From Candidatus Omnitrophota bacterium (GTDB taxonomy: Bacteria > Omnitrophota > Gorgyraeia > Zapsychrales > Fredricksoniimonadaceae): DNA of 48,734 nt. Both the position numbers and the translations under genes were made by a program. The stretch spans positions 1 to 48,734 of the forward strand of contig JADFYF010000007.1 of assembly GCA_015233165.1 (NCBI GenBank), written 5' to 3'. The stretch's first letter is position 1; each line of letters begins with the position of its first letter. A model generated the notes under the pieces. It had not been told where the DNA came from. It worked only from the letters and a program-made list of their open reading frames with translations, and did no database searches. Below are positions 2,689 through 47,927 of the stretch, piece by piece.

Positions 2689-2695
2689 TTTTAAG

Positions 2696-2775
2696 GTCAT
2701 CCCCGAATGTTTCTGTCGGGGATCCAGGGTTTACTAAACGGCTAGATGCCCGATTAAAACATTCGGGCATGACAA
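2696..2775 (+). repeat. Palindromic element copy A (C-arm first), mlaE-mlaF gap
   Basis: About 80 bp starting GTCATCCCCGAATG and ending CATTCGGGCATGACA. It holds two small hairpins: left stem ATCCCCGA/TCGGGGAT and right stem ATGCCCGA/TCGGGCAT. It fills the whole mlaE-mlaF gap and ends about two bases before the mlaF ATG. It carries no stop codon in the mlaF frame, where it would read SPNVSVGDP...LDARLKHSGMT. Confidence 0.95.
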
Positions 2776-8524: not shown

Positions 8525-8604
8525 TGTCATGCCCGAATGTTTTTGTCGGGCATCTAGAAGTTTAGCAAACCCTGGATCCCCGATAAAAGCATTCGGGGAT
8601 GACA
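8525..8604 (-). repeat. Palindromic element copy B, cysE-cysS gap
   Basis: TGTCATGCCCGAATG to CATTCGGGGATGACA, 80 bp. Left stem ATGCCCGA/TCGGGCAT, right stem ATCCCCGA/TCGGGGAT. Minus orientation is given because the C-type arm is on the right. It begins four bases after the cysE stop and ends 23 bases before the cysS start. Confidence 0.95.
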
Positions 8605-14319: not shown

Positions 14320-14399
14320 TGTCACCCCCGAATGTTTTTGTCGGGGGTCCAGAGATTAGCTAAGAACTAGATGCCCGACTAATACATTCGGGCATGACA
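14320..14399 (+). repeat. Palindromic element copy C, metG-mtnA gap
   Basis: TGTCACCCCCGAATG to CATTCGGGCATGACA, 80 bp. Left stem ACCCCCGA/TCGGGGGT, right stem ATGCCCGA/TCGGGCAT. C-type arm first. It ends 18 bases before the mtnA ATG. Confidence 0.95.
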
Positions 14400-15460: not shown

Positions 15461-15540
15461 TGTCACCCCCGAATGTTTTTATCGGGGGTCCAGAGATGGC
15501 TAAAGTTCTGGATTCCCGACAAAAGCATTCGGGAATGACA
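15461..15540 (+). repeat. Palindromic element copy D, mtnA-thiL gap
   Basis: TGTCACCCCCGAATG to CATTCGGGAATGACA, 80 bp. Left stem ACCCCCGA/TCGGGGGT, right stem ATTCCCGA/TCGGGAAT, the only T-type arm. It ends ten bases before the thiL ATG. The AAAGG ribosome-binding site (15542-15546) is immediately outside it. Confidence 0.95.
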
Positions 15541-19000: not shown

Positions 19001-19101
19001 TGTCATGCCCGAATGTTCTTGTCGGGCATCTAGAAGTTTTAGCCAACCCTGCCTACCGGCAGGCAGGTCTGGACCCCCGATAAAGACATTCGGGGGTGAC
19101 A
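19001..19101 (-). repeat. Palindromic element copy E, alr-lptG convergent gap
   Basis: TGTCATGCCCGAATG to CATTCGGGGGTGACA, 101 bp. Left stem ATGCCCGA/TCGGGCAT, right stem ACCCCCGA/TCGGGGGT. The extra length is a third hairpin in the centre (CCTGCCTACCGGCAGGCAGG), related to the 3552 hairpin. C-type arm is on the right. The only copy between converging genes. Confidence 0.95.
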
Positions 19102-22149: not shown

Positions 22150-24546
22150 ATGAGAGCCCCGTTGACTATCTTTATTCTTGTCGCATTCTTATTTAACACA
22201 ATATCTCCTGTAAGTGTTCATGCTCAGGAATTATCCTTGCCTAAACCTGGAGTTATGGTTCATTTAAGCCCTGAATTTAATCCGCCGATTCTTAAAGGCA
22301 TCAAGGTTCATCCGGATAATCCGTTTCGGTTTGAGTTCATTTTGGATAAGGGAGATTCATCCATGTCATCCCCGAATGCTGTAGTCGGGGATCTAGGCCT
22401 GCCTGCCGGACAGGCAGGGTTAGCTAGTGTTCTAGATGCCCGACAGAAACATTCGGGTATGACAGATGAGCAATTAAAGCAAGAATCCACCAAGCTCATC
22501 AAATATTTCCTCGCCTCAATCACCACCCCCGAGAAAGATATGTGGGTCAATTTGTCTCCGTATGAAAAAGACAGAATCGTCCCTGAATCTTTTGGTCAAA
22601 CGGAAATGGGCAGAGATCTTTTGGCTCAGGATTATATGCTCAAACAGGTCACAGCGTCTTTGATTTATCCTGAGGATGAGGTGGGAAAGAAATTTTGGAA
22701 GCGCGTTTACGAAGAAGCCGCTAAAAAATATGGGACAACCAATATTCCAGTGAATACGTTTAACAAGGTGTGGATTGTACCGGAAAAAGCGGTGGTGTTT
22801 GAAAACACAGAGTTGGGGGCGGCGTATGTGGTAGAGTCGAGGTTGAAGGTGATGTTGGAGGAGGACTATTTGTCGATGACAAAACATGATTCCCCTCCCC
22901 ACAAGGGGGAGGAAATAAACCTTCTCGGTTCTCAGATTGTCCGCGAAATCGTCATCCCCGAACTCACCAAGGAAATCAACGAAGGTAAAAACTTCGCCCA
23001 GCTGCGTCAGGTCTACGACTCTCTTATTCTGGCAACATGGTATAAAAAAAGGATCAGGGACAGTGTTTTATCCAAGGTTTATGCGGATAAAAGTAAGATG
23101 GCGGGGCTTAATATTGATGACTTCCAAGACAAAGAGAAAATTTATAAGCAGTACCTTAAGGCGTTTAAGAAGGGAGTTTACAATTTTATTAAAGAAGATA
23201 TCGATCCTGTGACTCGAGAGAGTATCCCTAGAAAATATTTTTCAGGTGGAATGTCTTTTGATAAAGCCATGAACGTAACGTTAGATGTTGTAAAAACGGT
23301 TGATTCTGCACAGTTAGGAAAAAATGAGAATTTATATGTGGTTTCTTCTGGAGCCAATCAGGTTTTTAATAATAAAACAAATGATGGTAGCTCTCAATTA
23401 GAACGCGATAAGGCTATGATAAGTTTGAAGGGGCTTCTTGAAGGAATACAAAAGAAAATCGGAGCTCTCACTGGAAAGAATCCTCTGTCTTCTATATTTC
23501 TGACCTATGTGTATATGGGATTGGTACATGGAAGGTCGGTGGTTCTTGCGAGTGCGATTGCGGATACCTTTGGACTTCTTGGTTTTGGTAATTATTTTGA
23601 TCCAACAATATCAGAGGAACAACTGAAGCCCTTATTGCCGGATTATAAGGTGTTTAGGAATAGGAATATTTTGAAGGAAATAGCAGAAGAGGGGATTGAA
23701 AAATTCAAGTTTTTTGGGATCGACTCGATTAGAGACACGATCTTAGATCCAAACAATAAAAATGGTATTTGGGAAGTTTCTCAAACAAAGGTGCGTTTAA
23801 AGCCGAATACTAACTTAAAAGAAGAGGATGTTCGGAAAATTGTAAAAGGTGATTTTGATAAAATTTGGGCCATTTTGGAAAAGGCCCAAGAGTTGGCTAT
23901 CCTGGAGGAGGTTTATTCATCCCATGGAAAGACTTATCGTTTCCAAGTGGGGAAGGGGCCTATGGATATTCCAGAGATATTTAAAGACTATCCCAGGGGA
24001 AGCATAAGAAAAGCCGTTGAAAAAGCTTTCGCAGCATCCAAAACAAGGCAACTTTACCAAGATTTTATAAAGTTGGGAGCAGCCGCGATTGGTTTGGCGT
24101 TTACTTCGTATGGTCTAGGTGATAGGGGATCTTTCATGAATATGGCTCAGGGAACGTTAGGTAATTTTTCTTACTTTTTTTCTTATTCACTACTCTTTGG
24201 TGCCTTTGGTTTTAATGATATTCCTAGTTTAAGAGGTTTATTAGCGAAGACATTTACCAGTAGTGGAGTTTCTTCTTCACAACCATCTAATCCAGCTATG
24301 ATAACGTCTGTTGCTAAAACGCCTGTTGCTAATGTGAAGAGCGTGATCGATTCACAGAAAAACGGAGGTATCGATTTAACATCGGCTTCGATGGACGTAC
24401 AAACGAAGAATAGCGGCAAAGCTATTGTCTTTCAACTTGATCCTGCCCAGCTTGCAGAGTTACAAAATTCTTTAGGATTTGTCCCTGTCATCTATACTAT
24501 TGAGCCGATGAGGGATCTTAATGGATTTCTTGGCGTGCCCCAATAG
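22150..24546 (+). CDS. Large secreted orphan protein with in-frame repeat insertions
   Basis: 798 residues. Residues 1-25 are a signal peptide (hydrophobic core FILVAFLFNTISPV, Ala-X-Ala-type site VHA-Q). The mature part is largely charged helical (KQESTKLIKYFLASITTPEKD, YEEAAKKYGTTNIPV). Two hydrophobic stretches lie near the C-terminus (about residues 638-660 and 670-690). I do not recognise a catalytic motif. From memory similar proteins occur in Omnitrophota genomes, but I could not search. Residues 72-105 are the translated palindromic element F, with an extra LPAGQAG hairpin peptide, and residues 248-254 (PPHKGEE) are a second small hairpin repeat. The rest has no repeats. No operon partner is evident. 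Confidence 0.7.
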   Translation: MRAPLTIFILVAFLFNTISPVSVHAQELSLPKPGVMVHLSPEFNPPILKGIKVHPDNPFRFEFILDKGDSSMSSPNAVVGDLGLPAGQAGLASVLDARQKHSGMTDEQLKQESTKLIKYFLASITTPEKDMWVNLSPYEKDRIVPESFGQTEMGRDLLAQDYMLKQVTASLIYPEDEVGKKFWKRVYEEAAKKYGTTNIPVNTFNKVWIVPEKAVVFENTELGAAYVVESRLKVMLEEDYLSMTKHDSPPHKGEEINLLGSQIVREIVIPELTKEINEGKNFAQLRQVYDSLILATWYKKRIRDSVLSKVYADKSKMAGLNIDDFQDKEKIYKQYLKAFKKGVYNFIKEDIDPVTRESIPRKYFSGGMSFDKAMNVTLDVVKTVDSAQLGKNENLYVVSSGANQVFNNKTNDGSSQLERDKAMISLKGLLEGIQKKIGALTGKNPLSSIFLTYVYMGLVHGRSVVLASAIADTFGLLGFGNYFDPTISEEQLKPLLPDYKVFRNRNILKEIAEEGIEKFKFFGIDSIRDTILDPNNKNGIWEVSQTKVRLKPNTNLKEEDVRKIVKGDFDKIWAILEKAQELAILEEVYSSHGKTYRFQVGKGPMDIPEIFKDYPRGSIRKAVEKAFAASKTRQLYQDFIKLGAAAIGLAFTSYGLGDRGSFMNMAQGTLGNFSYFFSYSLLFGAFGFNDIPSLRGLLAKTFTSSGVSSSQPSNPAMITSVAKTPVANVKSVIDSQKNGGIDLTSASMDVQTKNSGKAIVFQLDPAQLAELQNSLGFVPVIYTIEPMRDLNGFLGVPQ
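22364..22464 (+). repeat. Palindromic element copy F, in frame within the secreted orphan
   Basis: TGTCATCCCCGAATG to CATTCGGGTATGACA, 101 bp, residues 72-105 of the protein. Left stem ATCCCCGA/TCGGGGAT; right stem ATGCCCGA/TCGGGTAT with one G-T wobble. The centre holds an added hairpin CCTGCCTGCCGGACAGGCAGG. Read as SPNAVVGDL...LDARQKHSGMT. Confidence 0.95.
22894..22912. repeat. Small hairpin repeat in the secreted orphan
   Basis: CCTCCCC (22894-22900) pairs with GGGGAGG (22906-22912) around ACAAG. The codons read PPHKGEE, a peptide I know from dispersed hairpin repeats in other genomes. It is in frame. Confidence 0.7.
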
Positions 24547-25549: not shown

Positions 25550-26124
25550 CCCAATTGATTTTGGCATCAGCTTCCCCTCAAAGACGAGATCTGATTAAGA
25601 TTTTAGGTCTTCCGTTTATCGTTTCTCCCAGCCAGGCTCAAGAGCAATCTACTTTAAGTCGTGGGGTTGTTCATCTGGTTAAACACAATGCGTTTATTAA
25701 GGCGTCGGATGTGGCCAGTCGTTTTAAATCCGGGTTTGTTATCGGCTGTGACACCGTCGTGTTCTCTCACAAAAAACGTTTGATTCTAAAACCTAGGGAT
25801 TATAAAGAGGCTAAAAAGAATCTATTAGAGTTGATGGAGAAACCCCATTGGGTCTACTCAGGAATCGTTGTTATTGATGCGAAAACCAAGAAGGCTGTGG
25901 TGGATTATGAAAAGACCAAGGTTTTCATGAAGCCATTATCGTCGCAGGAGATTGATCGTTATCACAAGAAGGTTTACCCCATGGATAAGGCCGGCGGATT
26001 TGATATCGAGGGTAAGGGAGCCATGTTTATTTATCGTATTGAAGGTTGTTATTTTAATGTCGTCGGTTTGCCCCTGGCTAAATTAAGTCAGATGTTAAAG
26101 AAGTTTCACGTTGAGGTGATATGA
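25546..26124 (+). CDS. maf: Maf family nucleoside triphosphate pyrophosphatase
   Basis: 192 residues. The family signature ASASPQRRDLIKILG opens the protein, and the active-site region GCDTVVFSHKK and YEKTKVFMKPL are present. Maf hydrolyses non-canonical nucleotides and dTTP/UTP, and is linked to septum control in Bacillus. It overlaps pyrE by four bases and the DUF192 gene by four bases (ATGA), so the three are translationally coupled. Confidence 0.92.
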   Translation: MTQLILASASPQRRDLIKILGLPFIVSPSQAQEQSTLSRGVVHLVKHNAFIKASDVASRFKSGFVIGCDTVVFSHKKRLILKPRDYKEAKKNLLELMEKPHWVYSGIVVIDAKTKKAVVDYEKTKVFMKPLSSQEIDRYHKKVYPMDKAGGFDIEGKGAMFIYRIEGCYFNVVGLPLAKLSQMLKKFHVEVI

Positions 26125-26570
26125 AAAGAATCGTTGGGTTTTTTTTGTTCTGGATTCCCGCCTTCGCGGGAATGATATTCTTGACGAGTCCCTTGGCTTA
26201 TGCAGCATCTGCTTGTGTGAAAGATGTTTGTGTGAAGGTGGAGGTTGTCAGATCGTCGGAGGATATGAGACGAGGGTTGCAGGGAAGGGAAGGGTTGGCG
26301 GATCATCAAGGGATGCTCTTTGTTTTTGAATCGGAGGATATTCAGCGATTTTGGATGAAGGATATGAAGTTTGCGATTGATATGCTTTGGATCGATGCTT
26401 CGAATCGTATTGTCAGCATTGCCTCTTCTGTTGCCCCTTGCCAAAAGGATCCTTGTGAGGTGTATGCATCGTCACAGAAAGCTCTTTATGTGTTGGAAAT
26501 ACCTGCTGGTTTTTCGTTGAAGAATAACCTTAGAATGGGTGATGTATTTCAATTTAAGGATATAAATTAA
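26121..26570 (+). CDS. DUF192 family secreted protein
   Basis: 149 residues. Residues 1-31 are a signal peptide whose core (FFLFWIPAFAGMIFL) is partly encoded by a hairpin repeat at 26154-26173. The mature part has the DUF192 signature RGLQGREGL, GMLFVFESEDIQRFWMKDM and DMLWIDASNRIV. Function of the family is not known to me. Four Cys in the mature part (CVKDVC, CQKDPC) could form disulphides. It overlaps maf and the histidine kinase at both ends. Confidence 0.85.
   Translation: MKRIVGFFLFWIPAFAGMIFLTSPLAYAASACVKDVCVKVEVVRSSEDMRRGLQGREGLADHQGMLFVFESEDIQRFWMKDMKFAIDMLWIDASNRIVSIASSVAPCQKDPCEVYASSQKALYVLEIPAGFSLKNNLRMGDVFQFKDIN
26154..26173. repeat. Hairpin repeat ATTCCCGC...GCGGGAAT inside the signal peptide
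   Basis: ATTCCCGC (26154-26161) and GCGGGAAT (26166-26173) around CTTC, translated as part of WIPAFAG. Its sequence resembles the T-type arm of palindromic copy D (CTGGATTCCCG...CGGGAATGACA), so it may be a solitary half-element. Confidence 0.8.
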
Positions 26571-44736: not shown

Positions 44737-46149
44737 TTATTTTTTAGGACGATAAACGTGAGTCGAGGTTCCGAAGAACATCTCTGCTGTTTCCATGACG
44801 GTTTCTGACATGGTTGGGTGGGCATGGATCGTTAGTTTTAAATCATTCGCCACACAGCCCATTTCAACAGCCAGCACACCTTCAGCAATCATTTCTCCAG
44901 CGCCCACACCCACGATACCAACTCCCAGGATTCGTTCTGTCTTGGGATCGATGATGAGTTTTGTTAATCCATCTTGACGATCTAGTGTTAAAGCACGACC
45001 AGAAGCGGCCCAGGGAAATTTCACCACACGGACATCCTTGCCTTGTTTTTGAGCGTCACCTTCGGTGATCCCACACCAGGCGATTTCAGGGTCGGTAAAA
45101 ACGACGGCAGGGATCGCCTGAGGTTCAAAGGCTACCTTATGACCTGCGATGGATTCCACCGCCACACGACCTTCGTGGGAAGCCTTGTGAGCGAGCATAG
45201 GATCGCCAGCGATATCTCCGATAGCATAAATATTGTCATCATTCGTACGACGCTGATCATTGACTTGAACAAAGCCTCTGGGAAGAACCTTAACCTTGGT
45301 ATTCTCAAGGCCTAAATTTTCAGAGTTGGGTTTACGTCCGATAGAGATCAGAACCTTACTGAATTCGTGTTTAAACTCTTTACCGTCCTTATCTGCAAAG
45401 GTGACGGTGATTCCGTTGGAGGATTCATCCATCTTTAAGACCTTGGTTTCTAAGAAGATATTGGCAAACATGCCCTTGACCCGTTTATTAAGAACGTCAG
45501 CCAGGTCAGGATCTGCTCCGGGAAGCAGGGAAGAAAGCATTTCAACAACGGACACCTTGGTCCCAAGTTCATGATAAACGGTTCCTAGTTCCATCCCAAT
45601 ATAACCACCACCAATGACCAGCAAGGATTCAGGGATATGATCTGTGTCTAATGCTGCTGTCGAATCCCAGATATGAGGTGATTTGGGAGCGTGAGGTAAG
45701 GTGGAAGGACGAGAACCTGTTGCTAGAATGGCTTTATCAAAGACAACCTCTTCGCTTGTTCCGTCGGTTTTCTTGACGGTTAATGATTGAGAATTAACAA
45801 AAGACGCTGATCCTTGGATATAGCGAATCTTGCGGGCTTTGGTTAATTGGCCAAGACCTCCGGTGAGTTTACTAACAATACCTTTCTTCCAATCTAATAA
45901 TTTCTTGATATCAATCTTGGGAGCACTGTAGTCGATACCGAACTTCGTGGCATGTTTGGCTTCAGAAATAATTTTAGCGACGTGTAGGAAGGCTTTAGAG
46001 GGAATACAGCCACGGTAAAGGCAGACACCACCAGGATTGATTTCTTTTTCAACGATGGTGACATCCAGTCCAAGATCAGCGGCTAAGAAAGCAGCAGCAT
46101 AACCGCCGGGACCTGCGCCGATGACGACGAGTTTAATGGGAGCAGACAT
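44737..46149 (-). CDS. lpdA: Dihydrolipoyl dehydrogenase
   Basis: 470 residues. FAD-binding VVIGAGPGGYAAA, the redox disulphide C43-C48 in GGVCLYRGCIPSK, the NAD domain VIGGGYIGMELG, AIGDIAGDPMLAHKA, and the catalytic His-Glu region HAHPTMSETVMET near the C-terminus. It is the E3 subunit of the pyruvate dehydrogenase complex, reoxidising lipoamide. The start overlaps the aceF stop by one base. It follows aceE and aceF in the same operon. Confidence 0.97.
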   Translation of the reverse strand: MSAPIKLVVIGAGPGGYAAAFLAADLGLDVTIVEKEINPGGVCLYRGCIPSKAFLHVAKIISEAKHATKFGIDYSAPKIDIKKLLDWKKGIVSKLTGGLGQLTKARKIRYIQGSASFVNSQSLTVKKTDGTSEEVVFDKAILATGSRPSTLPHAPKSPHIWDSTAALDTDHIPESLLVIGGGYIGMELGTVYHELGTKVSVVEMLSSLLPGADPDLADVLNKRVKGMFANIFLETKVLKMDESSNGITVTFADKDGKEFKHEFSKVLISIGRKPNSENLGLENTKVKVLPRGFVQVNDQRRTNDDNIYAIGDIAGDPMLAHKASHEGRVAVESIAGHKVAFEPQAIPAVVFTDPEIAWCGITEGDAQKQGKDVRVVKFPWAASGRALTLDRQDGLTKLIIDPKTERILGVGIVGVGAGEMIAEGVLAVEMGCVANDLKLTIHAHPTMSETVMETAEMFFGTSTHVYRPKK

Positions 46150-47825
46150 TATAACCCCTCCACAGAAGAAGGATTCTCAAGAGCAGAGGCAATCCAGCGG
46201 ATAAAACGGGCCCCATCAGCACCGTCGATGAGACGATGATCATAGGATAGAGAAATAGGAAGCATCAGCTTGGGGAGGAACATTCCATCTACATAGACAG
46301 GTTCCATCACACCGCGGGAAACACCAAGGATAGCCACTTCTGGCCAATTAACGATGGGTGTAAAGAAGCTGCCGCCAATACCACCTAAATTGGAAATGGT
46401 AAAGGTTCCACCTTGCAGTTCTTCAATCCCTGTCTTACGTGTGCGGGCGCGTTCAGCGACGGCGACTAATTCATCCGAGATCTGAGGAACTGTTAAACGA
46501 TCCACATTTTTAAGAACAGGAACCAATAGGCCTCGGTCTGTATCAACAGCGACGCCAATATTGATGAAATCTTTAAAGACAATCTCGTTGGTGGCCATGT
46601 CTACAGAGGCGTTGAATTGAGGGAATTTCTGTAAGCCAATAGCCATGATTTTAATTAAGTAGGCGGTAATCGAAAGTTTTTTATGTGTGGAAGAAAGTTT
46701 ACGTAATTTTTCAATCTCCGTGATGTCGACCTTTTCAAATTGGGTGACGTGGGGAATAGCGTTCCAGGCAAAGGAAAGATGTTCGGCTGTCTTTTTACGG
46801 ACATTGCTCATCGCCTCACGTTTGAAGTTACCCCATTTGGAGAAATCAGGTAAGGATTTTGTCGTCGCTGCTGCTGGATATGGAATGCGACCAGTATTTA
46901 AAGCTTTGGAATATTTTTTAACGTCATCAACAGAAATGCGTCCACCAGGACCGCTACCGAGAACTTGTCCGATATCAATGCCAATTTCACGAGCGAACAT
47001 ACGAACAGAGGGAGCGGCAGAAATGTCTTTACGAACAGGAGCAGGGCCTGCGCTAATAGCGGGGGTAGTGGTTGTTGTATTTTCTGTCATACCCGAATGT
47101 TGTCCCCTCATGTCGGGGACTTCCGTTGGTCGTTGTCGGGTATCTAGAGGTTTGCTAACTTCTAGGTCCCCGACTAAAGCTTTCGGGGACGACGATGGTT
47201 GATTAGTTACAGGAGCAGCTACTGCGCCAGATAAGATCTTAAAGACGGGTTGGCCGACCTTAATGACGGTTCCGGATTTAATGAGAATTTCTTTAACAAC
47301 TCCTTGAACAGGTGAAGGGACTTCCAGAACAGCTTTATCGGTTTCCAGCTCAAGAATGTTTTGCCCCTTCTTAATGGCATCGCCTTCCTTGACGAGAATC
47401 TTGGTGACAGTTCCTTTTTCTAAATTTTCACCTAAGGGAGGAAGGGCTAGATCTTGAATCGTATTGCCGACAGCTCTTGGAGTAGTGGGTTCGAAATTTT
47501 CTGTCATACCCGAATGCTTGTGTCGGGTATCTAGAGGTTGGCTAATTTCTGGACCCCCGACAGAAACATTCGGGGGTGACAAAGGTTTGTTGGTTGATCC
47601 GCTTAAGATAAAAACGGGTTGGCCGATTTTAACAACGCTTCCGGCTTTCACCAGGATTTCGCTGATGGTTCCATCCATGTTGGAGGGAATTTCCACCACC
47701 GCTTTATCTGTTTCAAGTTCGAGAATGTTCTGACCCTTTTTAAGGGAGTCACCGACCTTGACCAAGACCTTGGTGACTGTTCCCTGAGTGATGTTTTCGC
47801 CGATTTCGGGCAGTTTTAATTCCAT
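46149..47825 (-). CDS. aceF: Dihydrolipoamide acetyltransferase E2 with two lipoyl domains and two element insertions
   Basis: 558 residues from ATG 47825 (MELKLPEIGENI). Lipoyl domain 1 is about residues 1-76 (lipoyl Lys 41 in LETDKAVVEI). A linker follows in which residues 82-108 are element copy H. Lipoyl domain 2 is about 119-195 (LETDKAVLEV), then a second linker with element copy G at residues 211-247. The peripheral-subunit-binding domain is about 272-307 (PSVRMFAREIG). The acetyltransferase core ends with the DHRxxDG motif (His 530). Upstream the frame is open, but it is the translation of copy I. The protein forms the core of the pyruvate dehydrogenase complex. Confidence 0.95.
   Translation of the reverse strand: MELKLPEIGENITQGTVTKVLVKVGDSLKKGQNILELETDKAVVEIPSNMDGTISEILVKAGSVVKIGQPVFILSGSTNKPLSPPNVSVGGPEISQPLDTRHKHSGMTENFEPTTPRAVGNTIQDLALPPLGENLEKGTVTKILVKEGDAIKKGQNILELETDKAVLEVPSPVQGVVKEILIKSGTVIKVGQPVFKILSGAVAAPVTNQPSSSPKALVGDLEVSKPLDTRQRPTEVPDMRGQHSGMTENTTTTTPAISAGPAPVRKDISAAPSVRMFAREIGIDIGQVLGSGPGGRISVDDVKKYSKALNTGRIPYPAAATTKSLPDFSKWGNFKREAMSNVRKKTAEHLSFAWNAIPHVTQFEKVDITEIEKLRKLSSTHKKLSITAYLIKIMAIGLQKFPQFNASVDMATNEIVFKDFINIGVAVDTDRGLLVPVLKNVDRLTVPQISDELVAVAERARTRKTGIEELQGGTFTISNLGGIGGSFFTPIVNWPEVAILGVSRGVMEPVYVDGMFLPKLMLPISLSYDHRLIDGADGARFIRWIASALENPSSVEGL
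47085..47194 (-). repeat. Palindromic element copy G, in frame within aceF, with nested insert
   Basis: TGTCATACCCGAATG to TTTCGGGGACGAC on the plus strand, 110 bp, residues 211-247 of AceF. A 33-base insert in the left arm (about 47100-47133) includes a hairpin GTCCCC (47102-47107)/GGGGAC (47115-47120) and encodes QRPTEVPDMRG. Left stem A-type, right stem C-type. One end is degenerate (GACGAC). Confidence 0.93.
47502..47581 (-). repeat. Palindromic element copy H, in frame within aceF
   Basis: TGTCATACCCGAATG to CATTCGGGGGTGACA on the plus strand, 80 bp, residues 82-108 of AceF. Left stem ATACCCGA/TCGGGTAT, right stem ACCCCCGA/TCGGGGGT. On the coding strand the C-type arm comes first. Read as SPPNVSVGGPE...LDTRHKHSGMT. 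Confidence 0.95.
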
Positions 47826-47849: not shown

Positions 47850-47927
47850 TGTCATGCCCGAATGTTTTAGTCGGGCATCTAGTTCACGAACGTTCTGGAT
47901 CCCCGACAAAAGCATTCGGGGATGACA
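47850..47927 (-). repeat. Palindromic element copy I, aceE-aceF gap
   Basis: TGTCATGCCCGAATG to CATTCGGGGATGACA on the plus strand, 78 bp. Left stem ATGCCCGA/TCGGGCAT, right stem ATCCCCGA/TCGGGGAT. It lies between the aceE stop and the aceF start, ending 24 bases upstream of the aceF ATG. C-type arm first on the coding strand. Confidence 0.95.

Follow-up and report, generated by a model that had tools for sequence, protein, structure and literature searches.

Two copies of a palindromic repeat lie in frame within aceF

The window, i.e. the whole stretch of 48,734 nucleotides analysed here, is contig 165 of a metagenome assembly (G000; 2.29 Mb, 187 contigs, 78% complete) of a Candidatus Omnitrophota bacterium. 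Its aceF gene (46149..47825, (-) strand, ATG start at 47825) encodes pyruvate dehydrogenase E2 with two lipoyl domains, an E3-binding domain and a catalytic domain, seen by Pfam as two Biotin_lipoyl stretches, E3_binding and 2-oxoacid_dh; Candidatus Omnitrophota MAGs are among the sources of the nearest public AceF sequences. An initial annotation of the window had placed two element copies, G and H, after lipoyl domains 2 and 1, respectively, in the same orientation and reading frame, and our analysis bears this out. Copy H (47502..47581, (-) strand) is an 80-nt head-to-head REP heterodimer read in frame as LSPPNVSVGGPEISQPLDTRHKHSGMT, residues 82-108 of AceF, in the linker after lipoyl domain 1. 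Copy G (47085..47194, (-) strand) comprises 110 nt, the second arm of this REP heterodimer enclosing a nested hairpin, and is read in frame as SSSPKALVGDLEVSKPLDTRQRPTEVPDMRGQHSGMT, residues 211-247, in the linker after lipoyl domain 2. The first base of both copies is codon base 2, resulting in a single shared phase. On the coding strand each opens with a C-rich arm, which reads CGTCGTCCCC in G and TGTCACCCCC in H, and closes with the rare ATACCC arm (...CATTCGGGTATGACA). Copy G carries CGTC as its tag, the minority form among the arms, and the extra hairpin within one of its arms comprises ~32 nt; similar arm inserts occur elsewhere in the genome (L108, L121, L063, L089, L112).

In linker 1 the element contributes 27 of 45 residues, in linker 2 it contributes 37 of 67. 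In an AlphaFold prediction based on an alignment of only 19 sequences the lipoyl domains reached a pLDDT of ~90, with residues 77-120 and 203-265 below 50 and the linkers at ~30-40, low pLDDT being taken as a proxy for disorder. The predicted disorder of the linkers and the intact domains are consistent with the initial proposal that these linkers tolerate insertions without harm to the folds. The two copies, if translated, would be marked by tryptic peptides that cover HKHSGMTENFEPTTPR and GQHSGMTENTTTTTPAISAGPAPVR.

A further element, copy I (47850..47927, no strand assigned), separates aceE and aceF. G002, a genome of the same genus, has an element at the equivalent place (L179:1666-1745), with an arm order that fits an in-place inversion, and G001, also of this genus, has none. 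A long ORF running through copy I was rejected as an artefact of upstream start choice.

Six more copies lie in the window. Five of these are intergenic and were not assigned a strand: upstream of an ABC transporter ATPase gene (2695..2774), upstream of cysS (8525..8604), in the metG/mtnA gap (14320..14399), in the mtnA/thiL gap (15461..15540), and at 19001..19101, the latter having a CCTACCGGCAGGCAGG palindrome nested within the spacer. The sixth (22364..22464, (+) strand) is in frame within ORF 22150-24546, which encodes a large protein predicted to be secreted; in its paralogues copies occupy this site as well as others.

The element is a dispersed and strictly heterodimeric REP

A search of the host genome yielded 120 exact arm matches (59 forward, 61 reverse), and the same pattern read backwards gave 0. 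The genome holds ~90 elements. Parsing gave 60 dimers, and another 28 units were unpaired or degenerate; copy G was entered into the dimer set by hand. The arm has the layout TGTC-ATCCCCGA-(9 nt)-TCGGGGAT-CCAG, with the variants ACCCCC, ATGCCC, ATTCCC, GTTCCC, GTCCCC and, rarely, ATACCC. Paired arms are arranged head-to-head with their tags pointing outward and are most commonly separated by a spacer of 20 nt; both spacers and arms may harbor nested hairpins. As a single DNA strand copy H folds strongly (z -5.9), and in the folds of whole dimers the arms pair with each other rather than each forming its own stem. Hybrid dimers, in which an element arm is joined to a canonical CGTC-1-type arm (GATTCCCGCCTTCGCGGGAATGAC), were found as well.

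Pairs of identical arms are missing altogether, with 0 of 62 in G000 and 0 of 48 in G002, where 10.7 and 10.3, respectively, were expected, i.e. 0 of 110 in total, and zero homodimers were never reached in 20,000 shuffles per genome. The element is thus a dispersed palindromic REP that is strictly heterodimeric, and the absence of homodimers is possibly caused by the instability of perfect long palindromes.

The arm is present in 18 of 111 relatives and 40 of 285 genomes of the phylum, and exact arms are unevenly distributed, with 120 in G000, 100 in G002, 39 in G006, 35 in G017 and 0 in G001. The arm core CCCGAATG differs from the GTCATTGCGAG-type repeat of relatives.

In G002 the same dimer is also nested in a ~160-bp MITE with the ends GTATTTGTTTAGCT/AGCTAAACATTTAC, which is present in nine copies (L178, L205, L210, L212, L223, L231, L235, L236), several of them with an apparent 8-bp target duplication. 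At 26150-26177 of the window a canonical CGTC-1-type arm (CTGGATTCCCGCCTTCGCGGGAATGATA) encodes WIPAFAGMI within the N-terminal hydrophobic stretch of ORF 26121-26570, presumably a DUF192-type protein, and may be part of its signal peptide.

In-frame copies occur in many unrelated genes

Within G000 the element is also in frame in MurE, ValS, MnmE, MutL (as a hybrid), an ABC-type fusion and an aldolase-SCP2 fusion, and many in-frame sites are found in the family of large predicted secreted proteins. Several genes of G002, G006, G017 and G022 carry in-frame copies, too; from our own reading of the sequences we take the hosts to include SMC, MenD, an acetolactate-synthase-like enzyme and TsaB in G002, MobA and aldolase-SCP2 in G006, and MutL, at another site, in G022. 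As the same element is in frame in all these proteins, AceF is not special, and we dropped this idea.

The secreted family has copies at L083:11625 and L084:3404 and in further paralogues (L063, L064, L066, L075, L097, L107). Sites recur among its members, one site being occupied in opposite orientation in different paralogues, and one member contains kinase-like repeats.

In-frame copies are absent from orthologues, as judged from the orthologous genes for AceF, MurE and ValS and from solved structures for MnmE and MutL. MurE residues 1-75 and 106-516 are contiguous in G002, with 3 nt in between in G001, and ValS residues 209 and 234 are contiguous in G012, with 9 nt in between in G001. Alignments to PDB entries likewise place extra residues between aligned segments of ValS (1gax), MnmE (1xzp, residues 86/87), MurE (7b6o) and the MutL with the hybrid copy (1b63). 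DNA alignments of MurE and ValS to relatives gave no readable exact insertion junction or target duplication, as the flanks of the relatives are too diverged. The linker of the aldolase-SCP2 fusion contains the element in G000, G006 and G017 and lacks it in G001, G002, G012 and G020; the spacer is nearly alike in G006 and G017, and G017 has two further in-frame hairpins.

We then compared the reading frames of the in-gene copies of G000 and G002. Of these, 22 used phase c, which gives S-P-N readings, and 6 used phase b, figures that are rough because paralogues are counted repeatedly (one-sided binomial, p 0.002 against 0.5 and p 0.005 against 0.53). Over all copies the two phases are open about equally (c/b 0.45/0.43 in G000, 0.72/0.59 in G002). 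The loci comprised the G000 copies detected by DNA pattern and almost every place so detected in G002, a few of the G002 loci having first been spotted by peptide search; loci of relatives chosen by peptide search were left out, as that selection favors one frame. In-gene copies came from an ORF-based scan, which is blind to frame-shifted (dead) insertions. The phase b reading, VIPECFCR, contains two cysteines, which may explain the bias against it. A bolder idea is that the element is shaped to be readable: its arms would keep a soluble Ser/Pro/Asn/Gly-rich reading, allowing it to persist in essential genes and to be reused as a ready-made inter-domain linker at the same positions across species. 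We consider this unlikely.

AceF linkers of relatives lack the element

Aligning AceF with relatives, a check proposed in the initial annotation, revealed linkers without element peptides: these are absent from AceF of G001, G011, G012, G020, G022, G025 and G031 and of order-level relatives, which have ordinary Ala/Pro linkers of similar length. Linker 1 comprises 45 residues here. Among seven AceF proteins of the family that also have two lipoyl domains it ranges over 37-50 residues, and it has 39 in one member of the same order; linker 2 comprises 67 residues as compared to 42-61 in orthologues. Since linker 1 shows no excess length, a simple insertion would require that the ancestral linker was short or that the linker was trimmed afterwards. 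In G031 a different CGTC-type REP (GTCACTGCGAGC...CTCGCAATGACA), which has 22 exact arm matches in that genome, lies in AceF linker 1 (L034) and encodes VTASEAKQSDKKIASSPSAPRND.

The same peptides in orthologues of distant lineages had been named as the finding that would speak for ancestral protein sequence, i.e. for an old AceF linker resembling the repeat by coincidence. None of the AceF relatives examined carries them, so this test fails to refute an insertion. Together with the 120 arms against 0 in the control and the near-identity to dozens of intergenic copies at the DNA level, palindromic arms included, this rules out an ancestral linker, whose probability we regard as negligible.

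The copies had further been described as domesticated, meaning that the peptides would have been recruited as linker modules for lipoyl-arm spacing, solubility or swinging. Such recruitment would fit the large share of both linkers contributed by the element, the 22 to 6 bias towards a Ser/Pro/Asn/Gly-rich reading, and the repeated hits at linker-like sites, AceF being entered by different repeats in G000 and in G031 and the aldolase-SCP2 linker being hit in G000 and in G006/G017. Relatives, however, manage with Ala/Pro linkers of about this length, linker 1 is not longer here than in orthologues free of the element, proteins that are unrelated and have no common function contain the same peptide, and the AceF copies are found in no other species. 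We see no sign of selection for function and do not retain the term, recruitment being highly improbable.

One insertion or two

The flanks of G and H are 19/30 identical when anchored, ranking 4 among 3420 pairs, and three of the top four pairs are copies of one paralogous gene family. Both copies have the rare ATACCC arm, which accounts for only 2 of the 120 parsed dimer arms plus copy G, and 17 of their 20 spacer bases are identical. Because the flanks are unusually alike, two copies need not be two insertions; the initial claim of two element copies holds as a count and does not imply two events. Leaning on these similarities, we propose that G and H may derive from a single insertion that was later copied from one linker to the other by conversion. 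A fully independent origin of the two insertions would account for the differing first arms, for the nested hairpin being present in G only and for the whole-element comparison, in which G and H are each nearer to other genome copies than to one another, and linkers are used recurrently elsewhere (aldolase-SCP2). Against this stand the likeness of the flanks on both sides and the common rare arm and spacer, and we regard independent insertion as possible, though the less probable history.

A mobile repeat probably tolerated in linkers

The copies in AceF very probably belong to a mobile REP heterodimer family, non-coding by origin, that was tolerated in the linkers after blind insertion. The element would insert irrespective of genes, and selection would remove insertions that shift the frame, add a stop or hit a folded core, so that in-gene survivors would be confined to linkers and loops and read in a stop-free frame. 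The long disordered inter-domain linkers of AceF would be such landing places, and the element peptide, about half of each linker, would be tolerated filler rather than a demonstrated adaptation; the route of mobility and the neutrality are steps that we infer. A point against this reading is that the single Y1_Tnp gene detected in the genome is flanked by a GTAG-type repeat and is not linked to the element.

This provides a well-populated case from a candidate phylum with empty sites, repeated linker use and a measurable frame bias, and a natural experiment on where essential enzymes tolerate 23-37 foreign residues. For annotation, HSGMT and TFGGD peptides in Omnitrophota proteins should be read as marks of the repeat, and N-terminal extensions running through them as artefacts.

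Comparison with known repeat families

The famous precedent for in-frame palindromic repeats is Rickettsia, whose RPE-1 is a longer element. Rickettsia palindromic elements (RPEs) are, like the element described here, palindromic repeats that have entered a large number of unrelated and probably functional genes without breaking the frame (PMC10969869). They differ in arm sequence and host; in vivo expression has been reported for RPE-1 (PMC10969869). The analogy to Rickettsia drawn in the initial annotation is apt, since RPE-4 (CGTC-4) and RPE-6 (CGTC-1) belong to the CGTC-tagged REP superfamily (Di Nocera et al. 2013, PMC3733652), into which, judged by its sequence features, our element fits. 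In common with this superfamily it has an unpaired end tag, which in the superfamily is CGTC, or TGTC or CCTC, and here is TGTC in nearly all arms and CGTC in a minority, a stem of 8-9 bp with complementary AT first (read here as ATCCCCGA...TCGGGGAT and variants), and an unpaired CCA-type tail, with CCAG or CTAG following each stem. Superfamily members, too, form mostly head-to-head dimers, heterodimers being common, and have some copies in frame within genes; they lack a dedicated transposase, in line with our search for Y1_Tnp genes, which linked none to the element. The element departs from them in its host phylum, in being exclusively heterodimeric and in its loop of 9 nt (AATG-type) as compared to 4-5 nt in most described families; the canonical CGTC-1-type arm has an 8-bp stem and a loop of 4. 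As loops of other length are listed for Bradyrhizobium CGTC-1 and for K. olearia and M. prima CGTC-3 (PMC3733652), the 9-nt loop separates families but is no bar to the superfamily.

With the GTAG-tagged REPs of the REPIN/RAYT system the element shares paired inverted REP units, high copy number and dispersal, but its tag is not GTAG and it flanks no RAYT gene. A profile search of the genome for the Y1_Tnp class (PF01797) returned one gene, which is RAYT-like (L001:1456-1944) and flanked by GTAGGGGC-type GTAG repeats unrelated to the element. Rfam gave no meaningful match (best E 0.52, under the gathering score), and our literature search found no paper on such repeats in Omnitrophota. What is new is a long-loop CGTC-type family in Omnitrophota that combines a frame bias (22 to 6) with a no-homodimer rule (0/110).
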